Assembly (NCBI GenBank): GCA_019914995.1
Contig: CM034130.1
Span: 9,734,001 to 9,798,000, forward strand
Direction: 5' to 3'
DNA: 64,000 bases
Source: Acanthochlamys bracteata
Lineage: Eukaryota; Streptophyta; Magnoliopsida; Pandanales; Velloziaceae
Shown: positions 786 through 10,600 of the stretch, piece after piece
Layout of the letters: the number at the start of each line of letters is the position of its first letter
Numbering within the stretch: the stretch's first letter is position 1
The notes under the pieces: generated by a model
Told to the model about the DNA's origin: nothing
The model's database searches: none
Seen by the model: only the letters and a program-made list of their open reading frames with translations
Translations under genes and position numbers: made by a program

Positions 786-3581
786 ATGGTACAGACACGG
801 GGATCTAAGGAGAAGGAGACACAGAAACATGGAAAAGAAGTTATTTGTCTCAGCAGTGACGGCGAAGAAGCTAATGTCTCAATGGCGGCGGTGAAGAAAC
901 CACGCCGACGCCGGAGATCGGAAGTAGCCACGCCTGGGGTTATATGTTTGTCGTCATCCGAGGAGAACGCCGGTGAACCGAAGAAAGTGAAGAAGCGGAG
1001 GGTTAAGAAAAAGGTTCGATCTTTCCTTCAACTGAAAAGCTTCGATTTTCCTCTTTAAAAAGTGATTAGGAGTGTGAAAATTCAGATCATGATCACTTCA
1101 AATCGATACAGAGAAAGATGCAATATTATACAATTTTCTGACATTGTATTAAGATGATGCTAATTTGAAGGAGGATGCAATTTTAAGTTTTCTGTCCATT
1201 GAATGTCCTGTAGGATCTATACTGTTTGGCAATCCTGTAATCCGTGTTTGTAATTTGCACACAAACTAGATTATGAGTAAATCCTTAGTGCATTTCATGA
1301 CGATTTGCTATTTCATGATAAAGGGAAGAGCAAATTCAAGATTAGGTTTAAATCTTATTACTCTGATATGAACTCCATGCAGGGCTTGAATGAAGAACAA
1401 GAGAATACGGGTCTCAGAACTCGCTTGTGCAGTACAGCTGTTCCAAAGAATAACCAAGATGCAGGATTAGTTCAGACAAGATCTGAGGCAGAACATAAAG
1501 TCGGGGAAGATCACCAAGAAACACTAAACAATGAGAGGGTCAGTAAACCACAACTGACGGCCATGGAAGACCACCTAGAACTGCCGAAGGATGAGAAGGT
1601 AAGCAAAGATAAAACTGAAATAAAAGAGCACATCTTTATCTCTTAACCAAAAAAGAAAAAAACAAAAACTACTGAATAGCTTTATTTGACATGTTATGGT
1701 CATCGAGTTCTGATGTTTAGAAACCCGATAAGTTGCATACCTGGAGTGAGGCATTTGCTTGTACCAGGTTCCCGAAACAGAAGAGGAGTTGTTGATAAAT
1801 GCAAGTTCAGCCTGCAATGTAGTAAATAAAGATCCTGATAATGCTGTCTTGAGAAAGTTTCTTGTAAGCATGGACTGTGTCTATTCCATATTCATATGTT
1901 TATGTCTGTCTCTGATGTCCTTCCAAATTACTTGCTTTAGCGTGGACAAAGGTACTTTGACCCTAGTTGGAAGAGCTGCTATAATTGTGGAGAAGAAGGT
2001 CACACATCTGCAGAATGTGTAATGGAAAAGAGGCAAAAGCCTTGCTTTGTCTGTGGAAAATTTGGGCATACTGCAGGCCAATGCAAACTTGTGAGTTTTG
2101 CCAGTACTCTTTAAGTTTAACAAGTTGGTTGTTCAGCTTTACAGATCTTCAAGTCTAATTAACTTATAAAAATTGAAACTTGGTTGTGAATGTTCCTAAA
2201 ACATTCATGAAGCAGGATGGATTCTGTAGCTTACATTAATCTGTTTGCGCTTTCCCTTCATAGCATCAGTGTGACCCTTCGGTTAACTTTATATTTTCAG
2301 GTCTACAATTGTCATATCTGCAAAAGGCAAGGCCATAGTGCAAAAAAATGTCCAGAAAAGAACAAGCTGTCTGATGAATATGTATTCTGCTTAAAGTGTG
2401 GGAATTCAGGACATGATACGTTATCATGTTCTCGTGAATATGATGCAGAAGATCTGAAGGTGCGTTACTTTACTGGTCTGATATTTTCTCTGTACTTTTA
2501 CTTCTTCAGCCAGCTTCTAATTGCTTGAAAATTTTGTCCTTCAATGTAGTTAATCTAAGCTCCAATATCAACCCTCCCAAAAAACAACTAGGCTTTATTG
2601 ATTGTCAGTGCTCCAAGACAAATCCTTACAATAGCTTGCAGCCTAATGAGTCATGCTTTGATTGGTTAGGAAATTCAATGCTACATTTGCAAAAGATTTG
2701 GCCATCTTTGCTGCGTTGACAACATTGATTCTGGTCCCAGGGTGATATCCTGTTACAACTGCGCCCAAGTTGGCCATGCTGGACTTGTAAGTTCCCAACA
2801 GCAGCAACGACCTGGCTGTATCCCACTAATTGGGGTCAGTTTATCATTTCTTAATTTCCTTTCAGTGTATTGGTGGTAACCTGTGTTGTTCCATCTTATA
2901 AATTTAATTTGGATAGGAATGTCCTCTGCCGCGTGGTGGAAATGAAGCCACTGCATCTCGTAAATTATGCTATAAATGTGGTGAAGCAGGTCATTTAGCG
3001 CGTGGATGCAATAGGAATAGTAAGGTTTGTAGGAAAGACCGAAAGAACAAAGTTTACTTCTATATTAGATCATTAGTAGTATATTTTGCAGCATCTATAC
3101 TTAATTTCATTAAAAGTCTGAGATGCAGAGGGGTGAAGCATTAAGTCCTATGCAGAAAGTAGCTAAAAGAGATGGAAAAAACATAGGAGTAAAGTCTTCA
3201 CCGCATGATCTTGGGAAATCAAGCAGGAAGAAGAACAAGCAAAAGAAAGGCCAGCATGCTAAGAATCATCATGTTTTGCCAAACATAAATACGCAAGCAA
3301 ACAGTTGGGCATCATCCACATCAATGAATGAACTTAGACTGCAGCAGTATTATCACCATGTCATCTACGTGAATTCTCCTCCTCATCAGCATAGCATGCC
3401 TTTCCAAGGGACGGCTCCTAACTTCTTGAGGAGTTCTTACCAGAATGGTTTTCTCCCACCTGCATTTCCTCATCAGAACAGCATCCCTTTCCAAGCAGCA
3501 CCTCTTCACTTTGTGACTAATCCCTCCCAGAATGGCTTTGCTGCTCCCAATTATGGTGTCTGGCATAGTCATTTCCCGTGA
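786..3581 (+). CDS. Zinc-knuckle (CCHC) family protein, seven knuckles
   Basis: Eight exons fit in phase: 786-1013, 1383-1598, 1768-1863, 1941-2090, 2301-2459, 2670-2786, 2917-3024 and 3129-3581, giving about 508 residues. The N-terminus is basic and acidic low-complexity sequence with repeated VICLSS motifs. CX2CX4HX4C knuckles lie at residues 193-206, 215-228, 234-247, 260-273, 287-300, 311-324 and 340-353. The fifth has Asp where the last Cys should be, and the sixth is split across the exon 6/7 junction. The C-terminus is rich in Gln, Asn, Pro and His and carries a basic KKNKQKKGQ run. Knuckle arrays of this kind bind single-stranded RNA or DNA, as in the yeast Air1/Air2 subunits of TRAMP; a nuclear RNA-processing role is inferred. 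The ATG at 786 is the first in frame. No break is seen. Confidence 0.85.
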
Positions 3582-4230
3582 TTTCAACCTTGAAAACTAA
3601 CACCTACCATTGTGGCCCCAAGTAACAGGGTCAACTAGCTGGTCTGCATAGAACAGTAAGACTTTTCTGGTACTTACATCGAGTTCTCCTCAATATATCT
3701 ACAGACTTTACTTATTAAAAAGTGGACATACATCTGTGCTCATGCCTAACTCCTAATCATGGCAGGATGCGACAAATGAATGTTTTACCTTTGACAATAG
3801 TTCATTCAATTGAAAGAAAACTTTGTTATAACCAAATTGCTTTCCTTTAATTTTGTTCGGTCAGTTGAATAGTTAAGTGATTGATTCATAGTATGTCTCG
3901 TGCAAAGAGAAACAAAGTAGACTCAGCTGACAATTTCTGGCTTTCAACAGATTCTGTTCGTAACAAGCTGGAGTCTGGTCCATTTTGTGGTCGTCCCCAG
4001 CTGAAGATGTAAATGTAAGGACAATGGGAAATATTCTTTTTATGGTAAGTTCCATGGATCCTGTAAATGATTCTCAATATATTCAAACGATATTGAATGT
4101 TGTGGGATCTGGATAGTGGGGTTCCTGAGTTGTTGTAGAAACTTCAAAGTAATGTAGTCTTTTTTGTTAACGCAGATACTATGTAACTTGCTCTTGTTGT
4201 ATTACATGGAAGCTTGAAACTTTTTTCAAA
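3582..4230. other. 3' UTR and spacer
   Basis: Downstream of the zinc-knuckle gene. The first few hundred bases probably include its 3' UTR. No coding pattern was seen on either strand. Confidence 0.4.
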
Positions 4231-4498
4231 GGGTACGTTTGGCATCACGTTCAAAAACTGTTTTCAAAGTTTTTTCTATTTCACGTTTTCAATATATATT
4301 TTATAAATATATAAAAAATTTATTTAAAAATTTAAAAAAATATAAAAAAATTTTTAGAGTGAGATCTTTTTATTACATATTTTTATTATTTTTTTGAAAG
4401 TAAAAAAATAAAATTTATTTTTAAAAATTAAAAAAAAATTTTTTTATTTTAAAAAAATTTTATTTTATAAGTAATTTTAAATGCATCCAGATACGCAT
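4231..4498. repeat. AT-rich GCGTTT-type inverted-repeat element
   Basis: Begins GGGTACGTTTGG and ends CCAGATACGC; the interior is almost pure A/T with long A and T runs that pair across the element. It belongs to a family seen many times in the window (for example 28808-29038, 30103-30350, 30763-30993). The shape is that of a MITE; the superfamily is not settled. Confidence 0.45.
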
Positions 4499-4815
4499 AA
4501 GACCTTTGAAATGTAAATTGTTCTATGCTATCTTGATCTTAATAACAACGAAATAAATGAAAGCTATAGATCGCAACACTTAGTGAAATTTTATTGTCAT
4601 GAGATCTATACACTCAATGAGATAAGCAACTGGTCCATAACATAGCAGCCAAGCAGCCTCATGCCTTTCAATTCAGTGTCATAGTTGGCCTCAGAATACG
4701 AATCTATCGGCGACTTTCTTTTCGGTTCCGAATGTACATCTCACGAGGCCCCTTGAGCAACACCTCGCACTCGTTCCAACAGAAGAAGATATGATCTCTC
4801 TTGTAGGAGAAAACT

Positions 4816-5103
4816 TTAGGAACCCCTATGTACAACACCAGAAAAAGGATCAACGTCCAATATTTGCGGCCTCAGCCAGCACTCAGAGTCATGGCCTGGC
4901 GGAGGATTGATCACCGTAGTAGTGTTATAGCTAACTCTTTCAACCTGTCCTAGCCATGTTGAGTTGGAACAGGAAAGCATCCACTCTGTGAAAAGTCTTG
5001 TATCTGGCTTCCACTTGTTGTAGAGGACTACGCGGTCACAGAGCACGATGTTGAAACTTATCAGCAGCAGCACGACTGTAAGAGATGGCTTGAAAAGCTC
5101 CAT
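4816..5103 (-). CDS. Small secreted protein, unrecognised; frame changes near the end
   Basis: The ATG at 5103 opens a 95-residue frame with a clear signal peptide (MELFKPSLTVVLLLISFN, then IVLC), two Asn-linked glycosylation sites and a Cys- and Trp-bearing body (WMLSCSNSTW, HDSECWLRP). The frame stops at 4816. A neighbouring frame continues as convincing protein (VFSYKRDHIFFCWNECEVLL, then KGPREMYIRNRKE) to a stop at 4704, which suggests a one-base frame change near 4830 that shortens a protein of roughly 130 residues. I do not recognise the family; a distant resemblance to S1/self-incompatibility-type secreted proteins is only a guess. A transposon lies 18 bp upstream of the ATG, so normal promoter control is doubtful. 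It may be a recent pseudogene. Confidence 0.5.
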   Translation of the reverse strand: MELFKPSLTVVLLLISFNIVLCDRVVLYNKWKPDTRLFTEWMLSCSNSTWLGQVERVSYNTTTVINPPPGHDSECWLRPQILDVDPFSGVVHRGS

Positions 5104-5121
5104 GCTTTTTATTGTATTGGC

Positions 5122-6954
5122 CAGTGTTGTGAAACCCAACCCGGTCATTGACCCGAAAAAATTATCAGGTCATCGGGTCACCGGTTAAACCAGCGGGTCA
5201 CTGGGATAACCCACTGGGTCAAATCGGGTTTATAAAAATAAATATTGATATATAAAAGTTTAGATAGTATGTCTTACATATTTCTACTGTATTATAGATG
5301 AAATTCAAAATTTCATAAAGTTCAAATATTGAATGTTTACTGATGAAGTATATGCTATATTATGAATTACAAATGAAGTTCCTTGCATTTGAAGTTCTTT
5401 CAACTACCTGTTGAACTTGCAAAGTCTTCATATGCATACTTCTAAGCTACTGAAGTTGCATCTTTCCTCCACACATATCAGCAAGTGAAGCTTGCTATAA
5501 AAGAACTCTACAAAAATTCAAGACATACTAGTCAAACACAGATGGCATTATTCTCAGCAAATGTATACAAAGACAGTCAACAAAACATACAGCAGATGCA
5601 TACTCATAATTATAAAGTATTCAGGAAACTTACAGAGCACTGACCTATATTAACTTAACCAATGCAATGGAAACTTACCTGCTTCTTAAGACCACCAATG
5701 TCGTTGTAATCCTCTGTTGGCTTCTCATCTACTTCTAAAGCCTTCACTCTTGAGTCATATTCAAATAGAAGAGTATCCAATATTAAGTATCTATCCTTGT
5801 TTACACCAACAAGATAAATATAGAATATAGCAGATAAAAAGCTAACAGCATACCTGACTAGAATATTAAGTAGCTATCTTTGATTTTAGAATGGATGACA
5901 ATGCCCAGCAATGAATTAAATAGCACACCTGAGTAGAATAGAGTCAATAGACATATGATTGAATACCATTCTAAAATACTTCCAGAACCAAGCAGTAAGC
6001 AAACAACTACAACAGTAACTCCCAATTGATTTAACATTGACTGAATTTAGAACAAAAAGCAACAAGCAAGCAAAATAGACACACAGCAACAAGCAAACAA
6101 CTACAACTACAACAGCAAGCAAATTACAAATGACAATACCAAGCAAGCAAATTACAAATTGTAAATTACTGGCAGCAACAGCAACTACATCAATTCACTG
6201 GTAGCAACAACACTCCAACCCCTCCAACAAAACAGATGATTGAAAACCACATACTTACCGATCATAATTTGAATCTCCTACAAGTCCATCATTTGAATTT
6301 GAATCCCTATACAAATGCTGATCTCTACAGCAAATTTAAATACCATTTCACCAAATTCAAAAGAATCAAACAAATCAAACCATTAAATGATACAAACCAT
6401 ACATTCGTGTCGGGATTGTAAGGTTTAGCAGGAGCAGAATTCATGTCGGAGAAAAGAAGCTGGAGCACTGAAAAACAGCGACAAGATGGCCGGAGAAGAA
6501 CAGCAGAAAAAATCGCCGACAGGAACTCCGATCGACTATGAAGAATAGAAAATACGTCGATTCGTCTATGAAGAGGAAGAGGAAGATTTCTTGGCAGAGC
6601 AGCAATGATAACTGGAAGGAAGGAAGACAATGGTGTCGGAGAGAAGACGGTGCAGGAGATCGACGAGAAGGAACAGCGCAGCGCGCCGGAGCCGAGCCAG
6701 GAAATGAAAATGGTTCGTTCTGATCGAGCTCACCGAAGTAGCGAACGAGTGTTTTGTTTATTTTTTTTTTATAATAACACCGGATTGACCCGTTCATCCG
6801 GGTCACCGGTTTGACCCGAAAATCGGACGGGTCGATCCGATTCTTATTGAGTTTATTACATATTGGGTTCTGCTATTAGCCCAACCCGAAACTGGTATCG
6901 GGTCGCCGGGTTCCGGGTCGATCCAGCCGGTCCGGGTTGGGTTTCAAAACACTG
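5122..6954. mobile_element. hAT-type non-autonomous transposon carrying host exon (Pack-type)
   Basis: Both ends are defined. The left end starts CAGTGTTGTGAAACCCAACC and the right end, read in reverse complement, starts CAGTGTTTTGAAACCCAACC, identical but for one base. The element is flanked by a perfect 8-bp target duplication, GTATTGGC (5114-5121 and 6955-6962), which marks the hAT superfamily. Subterminal regions are crowded with short GGGTC/GACCC motifs, as hAT transposase-binding regions often are. No transposase frame is present, so movement would need help from elsewhere. Inside are a minus-strand exon of RPT5 (5679-about 5808) and a GC-richer promoter or leader-like stretch (6421-6730) with a short ATG exon at 6443 ending in a GT donor. 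The nearly perfect ends and duplication suggest a young insertion. Confidence 0.85.
5679..5808 (-). pseudogene. RPT5: Captured exon of 26S proteasome ATPase RPT5
   Basis: Read on the minus strand, the segment gives [15 protein letters not shown], then [20 protein letters not shown] and NDIGGLKKQ, followed directly by a GTAAG splice donor at 5674-5678. This is the linker plus the start of the AAA domain of the proteasome regulatory ATPase RPT5 (known plant form: [20 protein letters not shown]). The acceptor side is degraded and neither the previous nor the next RPT5 exon is present, so it cannot make an ATPase. It lies wholly inside the hAT element and was probably captured from the parent gene. 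Genomic capture is favoured over retroposition because the intron donor is kept. Confidence 0.8.
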
Positions 6955-6962
6955 GTATTGGC

Positions 6963-7615
6963 TCTTGTACTGTTGATATGTAAATGTTAGCAGAGCAGGT
7001 TGTGCAACTGCTGTTACATGAGTTACAAGTTGTAGAAAATAAATGTAAAAGGCGTTAAACGTATGTTACATCTCAGAGAATCAAGAATCAAACAACAAAC
7101 CTGTAACATATATACATCTTTGAACTTGCTGACTTTACTGTCTCACGTAGCACAACTTGAAAGGAAAAGAAATATCAAGTTGTCTACAAGAAACATGAGA
7201 GTAACCTTTCAACTCAGCTGTTTTTAAATGTACAGCAACATTCCAGTTGTTCAATCAGAAGAGCTTTTGTCAACTAAAATAAATGTTCAAGATAGATTAT
7301 TCAATCATCAGAGATGCTAAAGAACATGGATCCACAAATGTTTTGAACTGATAAGGTTCAGACAGAATACCTCAACCTGTCTTGTTCCGTTCAGCTTATC
7401 CTGACAGTAATAATAATTTAATAACAATCACTGCGCCAATCTTTAAAGATTCTTACAAGCTTCTCTTTGCAAAATGTAAATAAATAAATAAAACGGTTCG
7501 TTAACAAGCTTAAGAGCTGATACTCCATGATGGAGTCACTGAGAGTTGTTCATCCATCCAAATACACGTAATTGTGAGTAGAATATTCACTTCTTTTTGA
7601 GAGCTCGTCAGATAG
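6963..7615. other. Spacer; former upstream region of the small secreted gene
   Basis: No coding pattern is seen. The left part was next to the 4816-5103 reading frame before the hAT insertion. The right part is downstream of the GH3 gene and probably includes its 3' UTR. Confidence 0.4.
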
Positions 7616-10600
7616 CTATGGAGCTACCAAGAAAAAACATGCTACCAACAAACTCAGAACAAGACACCAGCATCCACTTTCTTTCACACTAGAACCAGCA
7701 CCAGAAATGAACCTATGAAGTAGAAGTCAACCAATGAAAATTTTCATCTTCATATATATTGTCTCAAAAACAAGATAACAAAGCCACGGTTGATACCACG
7801 AGTTTCTCCAAAGAATCTATGAGATAACATATGGCACCATATAAAGAAATGGGCGAATATGAACAGAGGTAGACAAAGGACTGCTAAAACAAACCCTGAT
7901 CACCTTGTGGGGGTTGAGTTGGTCGACCTTGAAGTGGTTGTTGAATTTGTTGACAACCCAAAGCCAAAGGGGTACATGGGGTCATAATGATCATCCCCTA
8001 CATTCATAGGCAGCTGGTCTACAGACTTGAACCAAGTACGAGGAAGTTTCCCAACAAAATCATAATCTCCGTACAGGACATCAGTAATGCCTTGGCCCTC
8101 AGTTCCAGGAAGCCATGCAGCAACAAGGGCATCGATAGAGGAAACATAAGGCTCAATCACAACTGGCCTACCAGAGATGATAACCACGACACACTTGACA
8201 GCACCACAAACTGTCTGGATGGTGCTTGGACCAGGTTCAAGAATCGTAAGGTTCTGGCTGTCTCCAGCTGTTTCAGTGTAAGGGGGCTCCCCAACCACAA
8301 CAACTGCATAAGAAAATCCACCGTCTTTGATGAACCCAGAGTCAGGGTTATTCGCAAATACAACATCAGTTGCAGGGTCTACAGTGGCCTTGATAGCACT
8401 GAGTATGGTGGTGCCTGAATGAGAAGGACAGAACATTTAGAATGCAACACAATTTTCACCCATCCACTTATTTTGATTGTATTCACAACGAATAGTTCAG
8501 GGGATGATGACTTGATGAGCAACTTGTATTTATATATGTTAAGGGGTGAGTGAACTACTAGAAAAACATAGATATATAGTTGGTGCACCGTACCTACTGT
8601 GATGTTCCCACTAGCTCCTTGCCATTCAATTGTCCAGCCACCACATTGATAACCCAAGTTATCTGCATGGCTTCCAGTAACAAGAACCTTTAGAGCTTTT
8701 TTAGGGAGTGGAAGCAACGGTGCATCAGAAGGTTTCCCATTCTTCAATAGCACAAGCGACTTCCTCACAGATTCCCTGGCTAAATCCCTATGTTCCTGTG
8801 AGAGACACTAACCATGATAAGCATGTTGGCCAAGCATGTAAGACTATCTAGTAACAGGAAGGCAGCTCACCTGTTTCCCAAGCTGATTGGCTAAGCTAAA
8901 ATCTGCCATAGGGTTCTCAAACAGGCCCATGGCAAATTTTACTCTCAAAATTCTCGTTACAGCATCGTCAATCCTACTCATCGGTATAACATTTTGTGTG
9001 ACAAGTGATGTTAGATCGTTAATGAACTCTAGGTAGTCATAAGGTACCATAATCTGCAAAATACCATCACAGGAACAACATAAGATAAACCTGATATAGT
9101 AATGCATAAAAAATTATTGATTGCTTAGAAACTTTCATGCACCATTTTCGGTCTAATCAGATATTCTTCAGAATTAGAAGCATAGTTGACAACAATATGA
9201 GATGCTCAACTACTAAGCTAGAAATTTATCTAGTCAAGAATCAAATCTTTTTACAAAAATAGGTAAGACAGGAATTTTTATTGTTTTCACAGACAATTTG
9301 ATCACTTAAATTAACAGGAATATTTATGAAGTAGGGGTGCGTCACCAACCATGTCAATGCCAGCATTTACTCCAGCTTGAACGGAGTAAGTATAATTCGC
9401 ACCAGCAGGAGAAATAATCCTATCAATTCCCTGCCAATCTGAAATTACAAACCCCTGAATGTAGTTGATGCATAGAGTTAGAGAGAAAATTCAGGTCTAT
9501 AAATAATGTCAATAACAATAATAGAAGTTGATATCACCTTGAAGTGAAGTGTGTCCTTAAGGAAGCCAGTGACTAGGTCACGGTTAGCATGCATTTTCTC
9601 CCCATTCCAGCTAGAGTATGAGACCATAATAGTTGCTACACCCTTGATAATTGAGTTGTAATAAGCAGGCATATGAATTCCCAGGAGTCCATGGCGATCG
9701 ACGATGGTGTTGTTCTCATTGATACCATTATGTGTACCCCCATCACCAACAAAGTGTTTGGCACAGGCAGCAACATTGTTTCTGGAAATGAAGTATAATA
9801 GAGGAAATAAGTACAGTAAATAACTCCCAGATTATAATCTAAAAGGCAACCTTCAAGGTCAAGGTAAAAAAAGTTGCTGGAAAATGCATCGGTACTCGGA
9901 CCTTTGATTTTCATTGCATGACACCTCAAACTAGGCAACACTGCCACAATACAGACGTTCAGACTACAACCTTGATCACTCACTGACCACACATTGTGGT
10001 CATTGACTGTTGCCAACTTTTCATATTTGCATGCAGTAATTTTATCCCTCTAGACACTAAATTTTTCTTTCTTTGCATATCCATTACCATACTGCACACT
10101 AGTTCACGATTAAATGCTTTCAGATGCACAAAGAGCAAATATAGTTAGGCCATTGACATGAAAATTGCATTTCATATTTAAGTTTTGGGATTTTAACAGT
10201 AATTAGGGCTTATCAGTCTTACTTTCCAGCGACAAAAGGATACCCCTTTCTATAATTTGAAGGGACATCTCCCTGTAAACCGGGGATAATCTCTGTCATT
10301 GCTTGGACAATCCTGTGGTCTTCACTGTAACTCTCGTAGCACCGTCCCCATCTTGGATCTCTACAAACCTGTATCAGCCACAAAATTATCCACTTCTAAG
10401 AGGCAAGACATCATGAGAACCTCACTGTATAACAAAACTATGATTAAATCAGAATCGACAGTTAACCGCTATGCATGGAGCAAAAGCATATTGGATTCCA
10501 GTGGCCCTGACTTCAAGTGCAGTTGCAGCACCAATCCTCTTTACAAGATTAGGATCCCTGACACAAATTCAATACGGCACATCAAAGTAAGATATTTGCC

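Follow-up and report, generated by a model that had tools for sequence, protein, structure and literature searches.

An RPT5 exon in a hAT element of Acanthochlamys bracteata and its probable capture by transposase-bearing relatives

How cut-and-paste transposons pick up pieces of host genes is unsettled, and a 2026 review (PMC13317346), in its passages on this subject, sets out one route for Pack-CACTA elements and leaves room for an undiscovered one. The same question is raised by a hAT element at positions 5122-6954 of the window (the whole stretch of 64,000 nucleotides analysed here, C5:9734001-9798000), which holds part of an exon of the proteasome ATPase gene RPT5. An earlier note on this DNA had read the element as one without transposase that had captured the exon. 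The observation is confirmed as real and its interpretation partly supported: a hAT element does hold RPT5, but the capture appears not to have been made in this copy, and seven of the 13 RPT5 carriers bear a transposase gene. The explanation that we consider best as a whole, at a probability of about 85%, is that a transposase-bearing hAT element copied RPT5 DNA, spread and eroded, and that the window copy is a derivative carrying the piece as a passenger.

The element in the window

The element is bounded by 23-bp terminal inverted repeats (TIRs) with a single mismatch: CAGTGTTGTGAAACCCAACCCGG at 5122-5144 matches the reverse complement of 6932-6954 at 22 of 23 positions. Elements of the hAT superfamily have short TIRs starting with CAG or CAR, and the window TIR starts with CAGTGTT. 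The 8-bp target site duplication (TSD) expected of the superfamily, here GTATTGGC, lies at 5114-5121 and 6955-6962 without mismatch. Both features are as the earlier note described them. A chance duplication, which it had considered, is rejected since many copies elsewhere in the genome have matching ends with TSDs.

Read in the sense of the transposase, the element runs on the minus strand from its 5′ end (TIR at 6932-6954, minus strand) to its 3′ end (TIR at 5122-5144, plus strand). The 5′ end and a GC-rich transposase leader occupy 6445-6954, and the start codon with the first 14 codons (MNSAPAKPYNPDTN) follows at 6403-6444, read on the minus strand from 6444. The whole of 6403-6954 shares 78-84% with the seven transposase-holding RPT5 copies. 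The 14 codons end at an internal deletion and abut 6211-6403 (minus strand), which in long copies lies beyond the transposase stop. Next come a native region between transposase gene and capture (5881-6212, minus strand), also found in a relative without RPT5 (L022), then the RPT5-derived DNA (5594-5845, minus strand), and last the native 3′ end region (5122-5586, minus strand), common to relatives with and without RPT5. The ends and flanking internal parts are thus colinear with a transposase-bearing copy and the coding part is missing, as in Ds-like internal deletions. The absence of transposase reported earlier holds for the window copy in that none of the 552 residues of the transposase query was matched at E 1e-4, but the leader and the 14 codons are still there.

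The leader-like GC-rich region and small ATG exon at 6443, from which a chimeric transcript had been proposed, turned out to be the 5′ leader and start codon of the transposase itself, on the minus strand. The plus-strand ATG exon was rejected as a gene: its CATG is the reverse of the transposase start, and the plus-strand open reading frame (ORF) from it measures three codons in L021, 11 in each of five copies, 32 in both L009 and the window copy, and 50 or more in L011, where the end of the stretch read cuts it short. The minus-strand start reading is kept across the family while this ORF varies in length, and an exact match to the start was not found in three of the 11 other copies looked at.

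The RPT5 piece aligns by blastn with the host RPT5 locus as host positions 2215-2253 joined to 2444-2672, at 90.0% DNA identity over 231 aligned columns. It contains a truncated exon 4 of 45 codons on the minus strand (5815-5679), which reads open and is followed by GTAAGT with the donor GT kept at 5678-5677, as the earlier note had seen. Host intron sequence flanks it on both sides, from 5845 to about 5806-5816 and at 5678-5594. Host 2254-2443 is missing and with it the acceptor and the first 55 bp of exon 4, so the piece cannot be spliced in as it is in RPT5, though some chimeric transcript may still arise. That a spliced transcript joins the element leader to the RPT5 exon and makes a protein is therefore scarcely credible. 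The window copy does have a leader, a start codon and a good donor, but beyond the 14 codons the frame enters the former 3′ region, and the exon is without clear constraint (see below).

A stretch of C3 aligns with the right flank of the element, strongly at 7495-8485 and weakly down to 7041, and contains nothing matching 5122-6954. The left flank aligned in a repeat (4271-4482) only, and the precise empty chromosomal site was therefore not retrieved. As far as this comparison reaches, the refuting condition of the earlier note, an RPT5-like exon present at this place without the element, fails. An RPT5 exon left over from a local copy of the gene was rejected on this C3 counterpart and on the source locus, which lies on C10.

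Several other features were observed around the element. A putative 95-aa ORF with a signal-like hydrophobic start lies at 4816-5103 on the minus strand and matched no Pfam family; its start codon is 18 nt from the element end, which places the insertion just upstream of it. The minus strand at 7900-8436 encodes the C-terminal part of a Glycosyl hydrolase family 3 protein, and stretches related to this region occur at C5:9701664-9709571 and C3:1193237-1212517. A high-copy short repeat at about 4230-4489 has its best matches, at 82-90%, on many contigs (search with 3800-5121, 40 of 2969 first-look candidates scored), and about 7034-7199 is moderately repeated, with matches of 75-86% at eleven places.

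The source gene and the carriers of its DNA

The genome searched comprises 195.5 Mb in 557 contigs. A search with a typed Arabidopsis RPT5 protein, in which 99 of 195 candidates were scored, also matched other AAA proteins and copies of the element, and gave C10:1405945-1410245 as the sole RPT5 locus among the candidates scored. This host gene is multi-exon and was matched exon by exon; its captured part matches chains of 26S proteasome subunit 6A/Rpt5 in the PDB at E 1e-69 or better. Two of the checks that the earlier note had proposed, a genome search for RPT5 and an alignment of exon and intron, were thus borne out by one host locus to which exon and introns align.

The host locus (L029) was compared with the window element and 17 other fetched stretches. 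RPT5 matches were present in 13 of these 18 loci, all inside host 2143-3146, and absent in L019, L022, L023, L024 and L025. The left limit (2143/2144) is reached by seven copies and the right limit (3146) by eight. Only L012 keeps the whole stretch, at 94.2% over 1006 columns, and the other 12 lack part of it: about host 2718-3055 is missing in seven, and host 2254-2443 in the window copy, L009, L010, L011 and L020. That the copies have limits and deletions in common points to one capture event, from which we infer that the RPT5 pieces at the 13 or more loci stem. The captured DNA consists of part of intron 3, exon 4 (host 2389-2580), intron 4, exon 5 (2937-3128) and a few bases of intron 5. 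Since introns were copied, the template was DNA, and capture by way of a spliced mRNA is ruled out.

Searching the genome with the element DNA gave at least 83 matches (40 of 91 candidates scored), and 20 stretches around such matches were fetched for comparison; copy counts are therefore lower bounds. At eight of the 13 RPT5 loci, the window copy among them, the element ends are flanked by a perfect 8-bp TSD, with eight different sequences. One mismatch was found in the TSDs of L011 and L021, two in that of L012 and four in that of L018, and no 3′ end was found in L020. Two arrangements were observed besides: L018 and L019 lie in opposite orientation at C15:865505-876092, their matched parts about 300 bp apart, L019 with 546 transposase residues and no RPT5 match; and L017, L018 and L021 each have two adjacent matches to about 90 bp of the 3′ end region.

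Seven of the 13 RPT5 loci (L012, L014, L015, L016, L017, L018 and L021) hold 550-552 of the 552 transposase residues, on the same strand as the RPT5 piece and upstream of it. Four (L010, L011, L013 and L020) hold only the first 40-90 residues, and L009, like the window copy, has no match to the query. Dimer_Tnp_hAT (PF05699) was recognised in the translations of L015, L018 and L021 and DUF659 (PF04937) in L015 and L021, and zf-BED (PF02892) scored above the cut-off in L015 and just below it in L021. Over the 552 residues there is no stop in L021 and L017 and one in L016; no full-length intact element was identified among the copies. In L015, as we read the sequence, the transposase gene ends in small exons with the stop at about 4085, and RPT5 DNA starts at 5159, 1.1 kb beyond. 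Such spacing would place the RPT5 exons downstream of the transposase gene rather than fused to it.

L009 and the window copy have the identical deletion junction and different TSDs, which makes it probable that the element moved after it had been shortened. We therefore regard the window copy as an internal-deletion derivative that would have been moved in trans. In the classic Pack-hAT account a non-autonomous element would have taken RPT5 directly, and the transposase-bearing copies would be irrelevant or would have received RPT5 later by gene conversion. Six of the 13 loci (the window, L009, L010, L011, L013 and L020) do lack the transposase body. However, the captured stretch is whole in L012 alone, one of the seven carriers among the 13 that bear transposase, and the window copy retains the leader and start codon of the transposase gene and shares its deletion with L009. 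We give this account very little credence. The preferred reading is that the capture took place in the transposase-bearing lineage and that the window copy would be a later, shortened relative.

A counterpart without the capture is provided by L022, which has native sequence on both sides and no RPT5. Its positions 2602-2882 correspond to L012 4724-5716, so that about 1 kb of host DNA stands in L012 in place of about 280 bp. L022 is itself short, with transposase residues 1-140 only, and differs from L012 by 15-21%, so the sequence that was replaced may differ somewhat from these 280 bp. A midpoint-rooted tree was made from the element 3′ end of 16 copies (472 columns kept; L019 and L020, being without that 3′ end, were excluded). 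The 12 RPT5 copies with a 3′ end formed one side of a branch found in 96% of bootstrap trees, with a support of 94/93 that falls short of the tree tool's own star. Next outside this branch is L022, followed by L023, L024 and L025, none of them with RPT5; L023 has 483 transposase residues.

Junctions and further captures in the clade

Two further lineages of the clade captured three more pieces of host genes, all in the sense of the transposase and downstream of it. L030 on C11, which by its transposase is the closest relative beyond the RPT5 lineage, holds 409 bp at 96% identity to C16:79194-79609. This source may be the end of a PDR-type ABC transporter gene; the name comes from a reading of the 88-aa peptide, for which Pfam and the PDB gave nothing. 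L034 and L035, close sisters of L030, have native sequence of about 46 bp at the place of the captured piece.

The more distant relative L032 on C19 holds pieces of a gene from C7, two of them at 91.5%, and adjoining these a second copy of host 1160-1273 of the C7 gene at 82%. Pfam recognised Peptidase M50 in this gene, which we take to be of the EGY type. Beside the EGY-like pieces lies a piece of an unnamed gene from C5 (C5:222513-223411, 97-98%), which gave no Pfam family and only insignificant PDB matches. L040 and L041, its sisters, have the element in common with L032 as far as the first junction and go different ways beyond it. Past the captured pieces L032 continues like L031, L042 and L044 (82-86%), which gives it the look of a mosaic. 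No fewer than five other places, two on C19 and one each on C1, C2 and C3, have most of the L032 stretch next to transposase hits.

All four recognised captured genes share the orientation of the transposase and occupy the same part of the element (4/4, two-sided chance 0.125), the sense of the unnamed C5 gene being judged by its ORFs alone. Cargo other than RPT5 was looked for with L023, L024, L025, L027, L028, L034 and L035 set aside. In L031 and L042-L047, degenerate tandem repeats lie between the transposase end and the 3′ TIR and no captured gene was recognised; L031, L043, L044, L045 and L047 were judged by eye on their ORFs, L042 and L046 solely by comparing DNA. L042-L047 were covered in their 3′ parts, and captures in them could be overlooked.

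The five junctions examined have overlaps of 3-7 bp between element and host sequence; TTG, AGA and GAG were scored by script. The RPT5 junctions have 3 and 4 bp, the latter (TGTA) taken from the BLAST limits; at this second junction the strict script gave -4 (no overlap) because a substitution adjoins it. The PDR junctions have 3 and 3 bp, and the first EGY junction, the only one of L032 that was scored, has 7 bp (CCTGCTG, by eye). The simulated chance of an overlap of at least 3 bp is 0.063 per junction. Such overlaps fit template switching in break repair, as discussed for other captures in the relevant parts of PMC3260210 and PMC8277862, and we infer break repair as the route of capture.

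The review PMC13317346, where it turns to Pack-CACTA, reports another route, in which aberrant excision of two adjacent elements traps the intervening host DNA in a hybrid element. Neighbouring pairs exist in this family too, as L018 and L019 on C15 illustrate. However, the element terminal sequence was not found in the fetched stretches (1.6-5.7 kb) of the four source genes, where the best matches had 8-10 mismatches in 23. Moreover, comparison with sister elements shows the RPT5 and PDR captures to be internal replacements with short overlaps, and in L032 pieces of two genes that come from different chromosomes adjoin each other. A hybrid-element origin is thus unlikely.

In the break-repair reading, a zf-BED/DUF659 hAT element with a transposase gene would have copied about 1 kb of the C10 RPT5 gene, most likely during repair of a break within the element; excision and other origins of the break are both compatible. 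By short microhomology, DNA synthesis would have switched to RPT5 and then returned to the element, so that RPT5 DNA took the place of about 280 bp of element DNA between the transposase gene and the element 3′ end. The enlarged, transposase-bearing element would then have spread, and its copies lost parts of the cargo and of the transposase gene. The window copy would come from one internal-deletion derivative mobilised in trans, a suggestion drawn from its sister L009, in which the same deletion occurs with a different TSD.

Constraint on the cargo and comparison with known systems

In the RPT5 exons of the seven long copies (21 pairs) there were 40 synonymous changes over 1090 sites and 168 nonsynonymous changes over 3986 sites, a pooled pN/pS of 1.15. 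For the transposase of the same copies the counts were 481 over 6285 and 1012 over 24273, a pN/pS of 0.54. In this pooled test codons with two or more changes or a stop were dropped, and the 21 pairs are non-independent. The distinct exon 4 variants of all 13 copies relative to the host gene, 14 synonymous and 42 nonsynonymous, were as expected from the numbers of sites (binomial p 0.63). Single-copy exon 4 ratios against the host ranged from 0.20 (L014) to 2.95 (window) with a median of 0.58 (n=13); these include the constrained host branch and rest on few changes each, so that mild constraint in some copies is possible. Misaligned exon 5 stretches (L009 and L011) were disregarded in the single-copy dN/dS table. 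The transposase gave dN/dS values of 0.15-0.21 between lineages and 0.43-1.01 within them. The closest pair, L021 and L017, had 1.01, which lends no support to recent constraint in that pair. The cargo is thus near neutrality, with no detectable constraint at the protein level, and the transposase is constrained over the longer term.

A protein-level function of the captured exon was not supported, given near-neutral codons and scattered single-copy ratios. The RPT5 piece looks like a passive passenger, probably without function, judging from the sequence. Near-neutral codons would be compatible with an effect of the cargo at the RNA level, and the piece might have been kept for an effect such as small RNAs against RPT5 or masking of the element from silencing. 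The common sense and position of the four recognised pieces is in line with this, but the pieces erode by deletion, 12 of the 13 RPT5 copies being incomplete, and the codons are near neutral. We therefore consider retention for an effect very unlikely, and keep to the passenger reading.

This one genome offers the source gene, a capture-free sister, transposase-bearing carriers, deletion derivatives and further captures in sister lineages. The family favours the view that transposase-bearing elements capture host DNA while they are being repaired, and suggests that Pack-TYPE surveys are biased in what they count. We tentatively propose that the stretch between transposase gene and 3′ TIR acts as a tolerated docking site, which may repeatedly have taken up host DNA in the sense direction that was then multiplied, and that most Pack-hATs might have arisen later, by deletion, from autonomous elements that carried cargo. 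If so, the usual order, in which the transposase is lost and a gene then gained, would be reversed, and surveys that drop every transposase-bearing element would miss the capture step.

The window copy fits the Pack-hATs as described by Gisby and Catoni (2022, PMC8903248) in its TIRs, its TSD, its match to a coding gene (137 bp of RPT5 exon 4, where more than 50 bp is required) and the absence of a transposase match; seven of its 13 RPT5-bearing relatives do have such a match. In their scheme, as outlined there, a transposase match above 250 bp makes an element autonomous, which is decided before captured genes are sought, so the seven long RPT5 carriers would go uncounted. The view that capture by hAT elements is less often documented in plants was incomplete, as it is already in print in the relevant parts of PMC2528002, PMC3260210 and PMC8903248, for transposase-encoding elements as well in the case of Hatvine-6 (PMC2528002). 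A literature search for RPT5 captured by a transposon gave two papers, neither of which, judged by its title and the start of its abstract, reports such an event.

Hatvine-6, a grapevine hAT (Benjak et al. 2008, PMC2528002), is a close likeness as far as its description there goes. As here, the transposase coding sequence and TIRs are common to the elements and a variable part often matches genic exons and introns; its TIRs have 13 bp and its TSDs 9 bp, compared with 23 and 8 here. Empty sites, junction analysis, a cargo tree and a selection test are given here and are absent from that account of Hatvine-6. Maize Ds2 and Ds-l4 (Du et al. 2011, PMC3260210) are likewise hAT elements with gene fragments, Ds2 being Ac deletion derivatives, and their filler DNA includes exons with introns copied from unlinked genes. 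In the parts of that report concerned, gene pieces occur in non-autonomous elements only and hAT gene capture is called rare, whereas here transposase-bearing copies hold the cargo and several lineages made captures.

In the Mutator superfamily, Kaonashi MULEs and grapevine ULP MULEs (via PMC2528002) are also transposase-bearing with host-derived sequence, which in some grapevine MULEs described there lies downstream of the transposase ORF as here; they have one recurrent domain, unlike the one-off fragments of this clade. Animal Pack-TIRs, as presented in the pertinent sections of PMC8277862, also have captured filler and breakpoint microhomology, explained by template switching in gap filling. 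They differ in being animal elements, most of whose single-copy cases are ascribed to transposition-independent breaks. To these precedents the hAT clade described here adds a case resolved into its source gene, a sister without the capture, carriers and derivatives, and also repeated capture within a clade.
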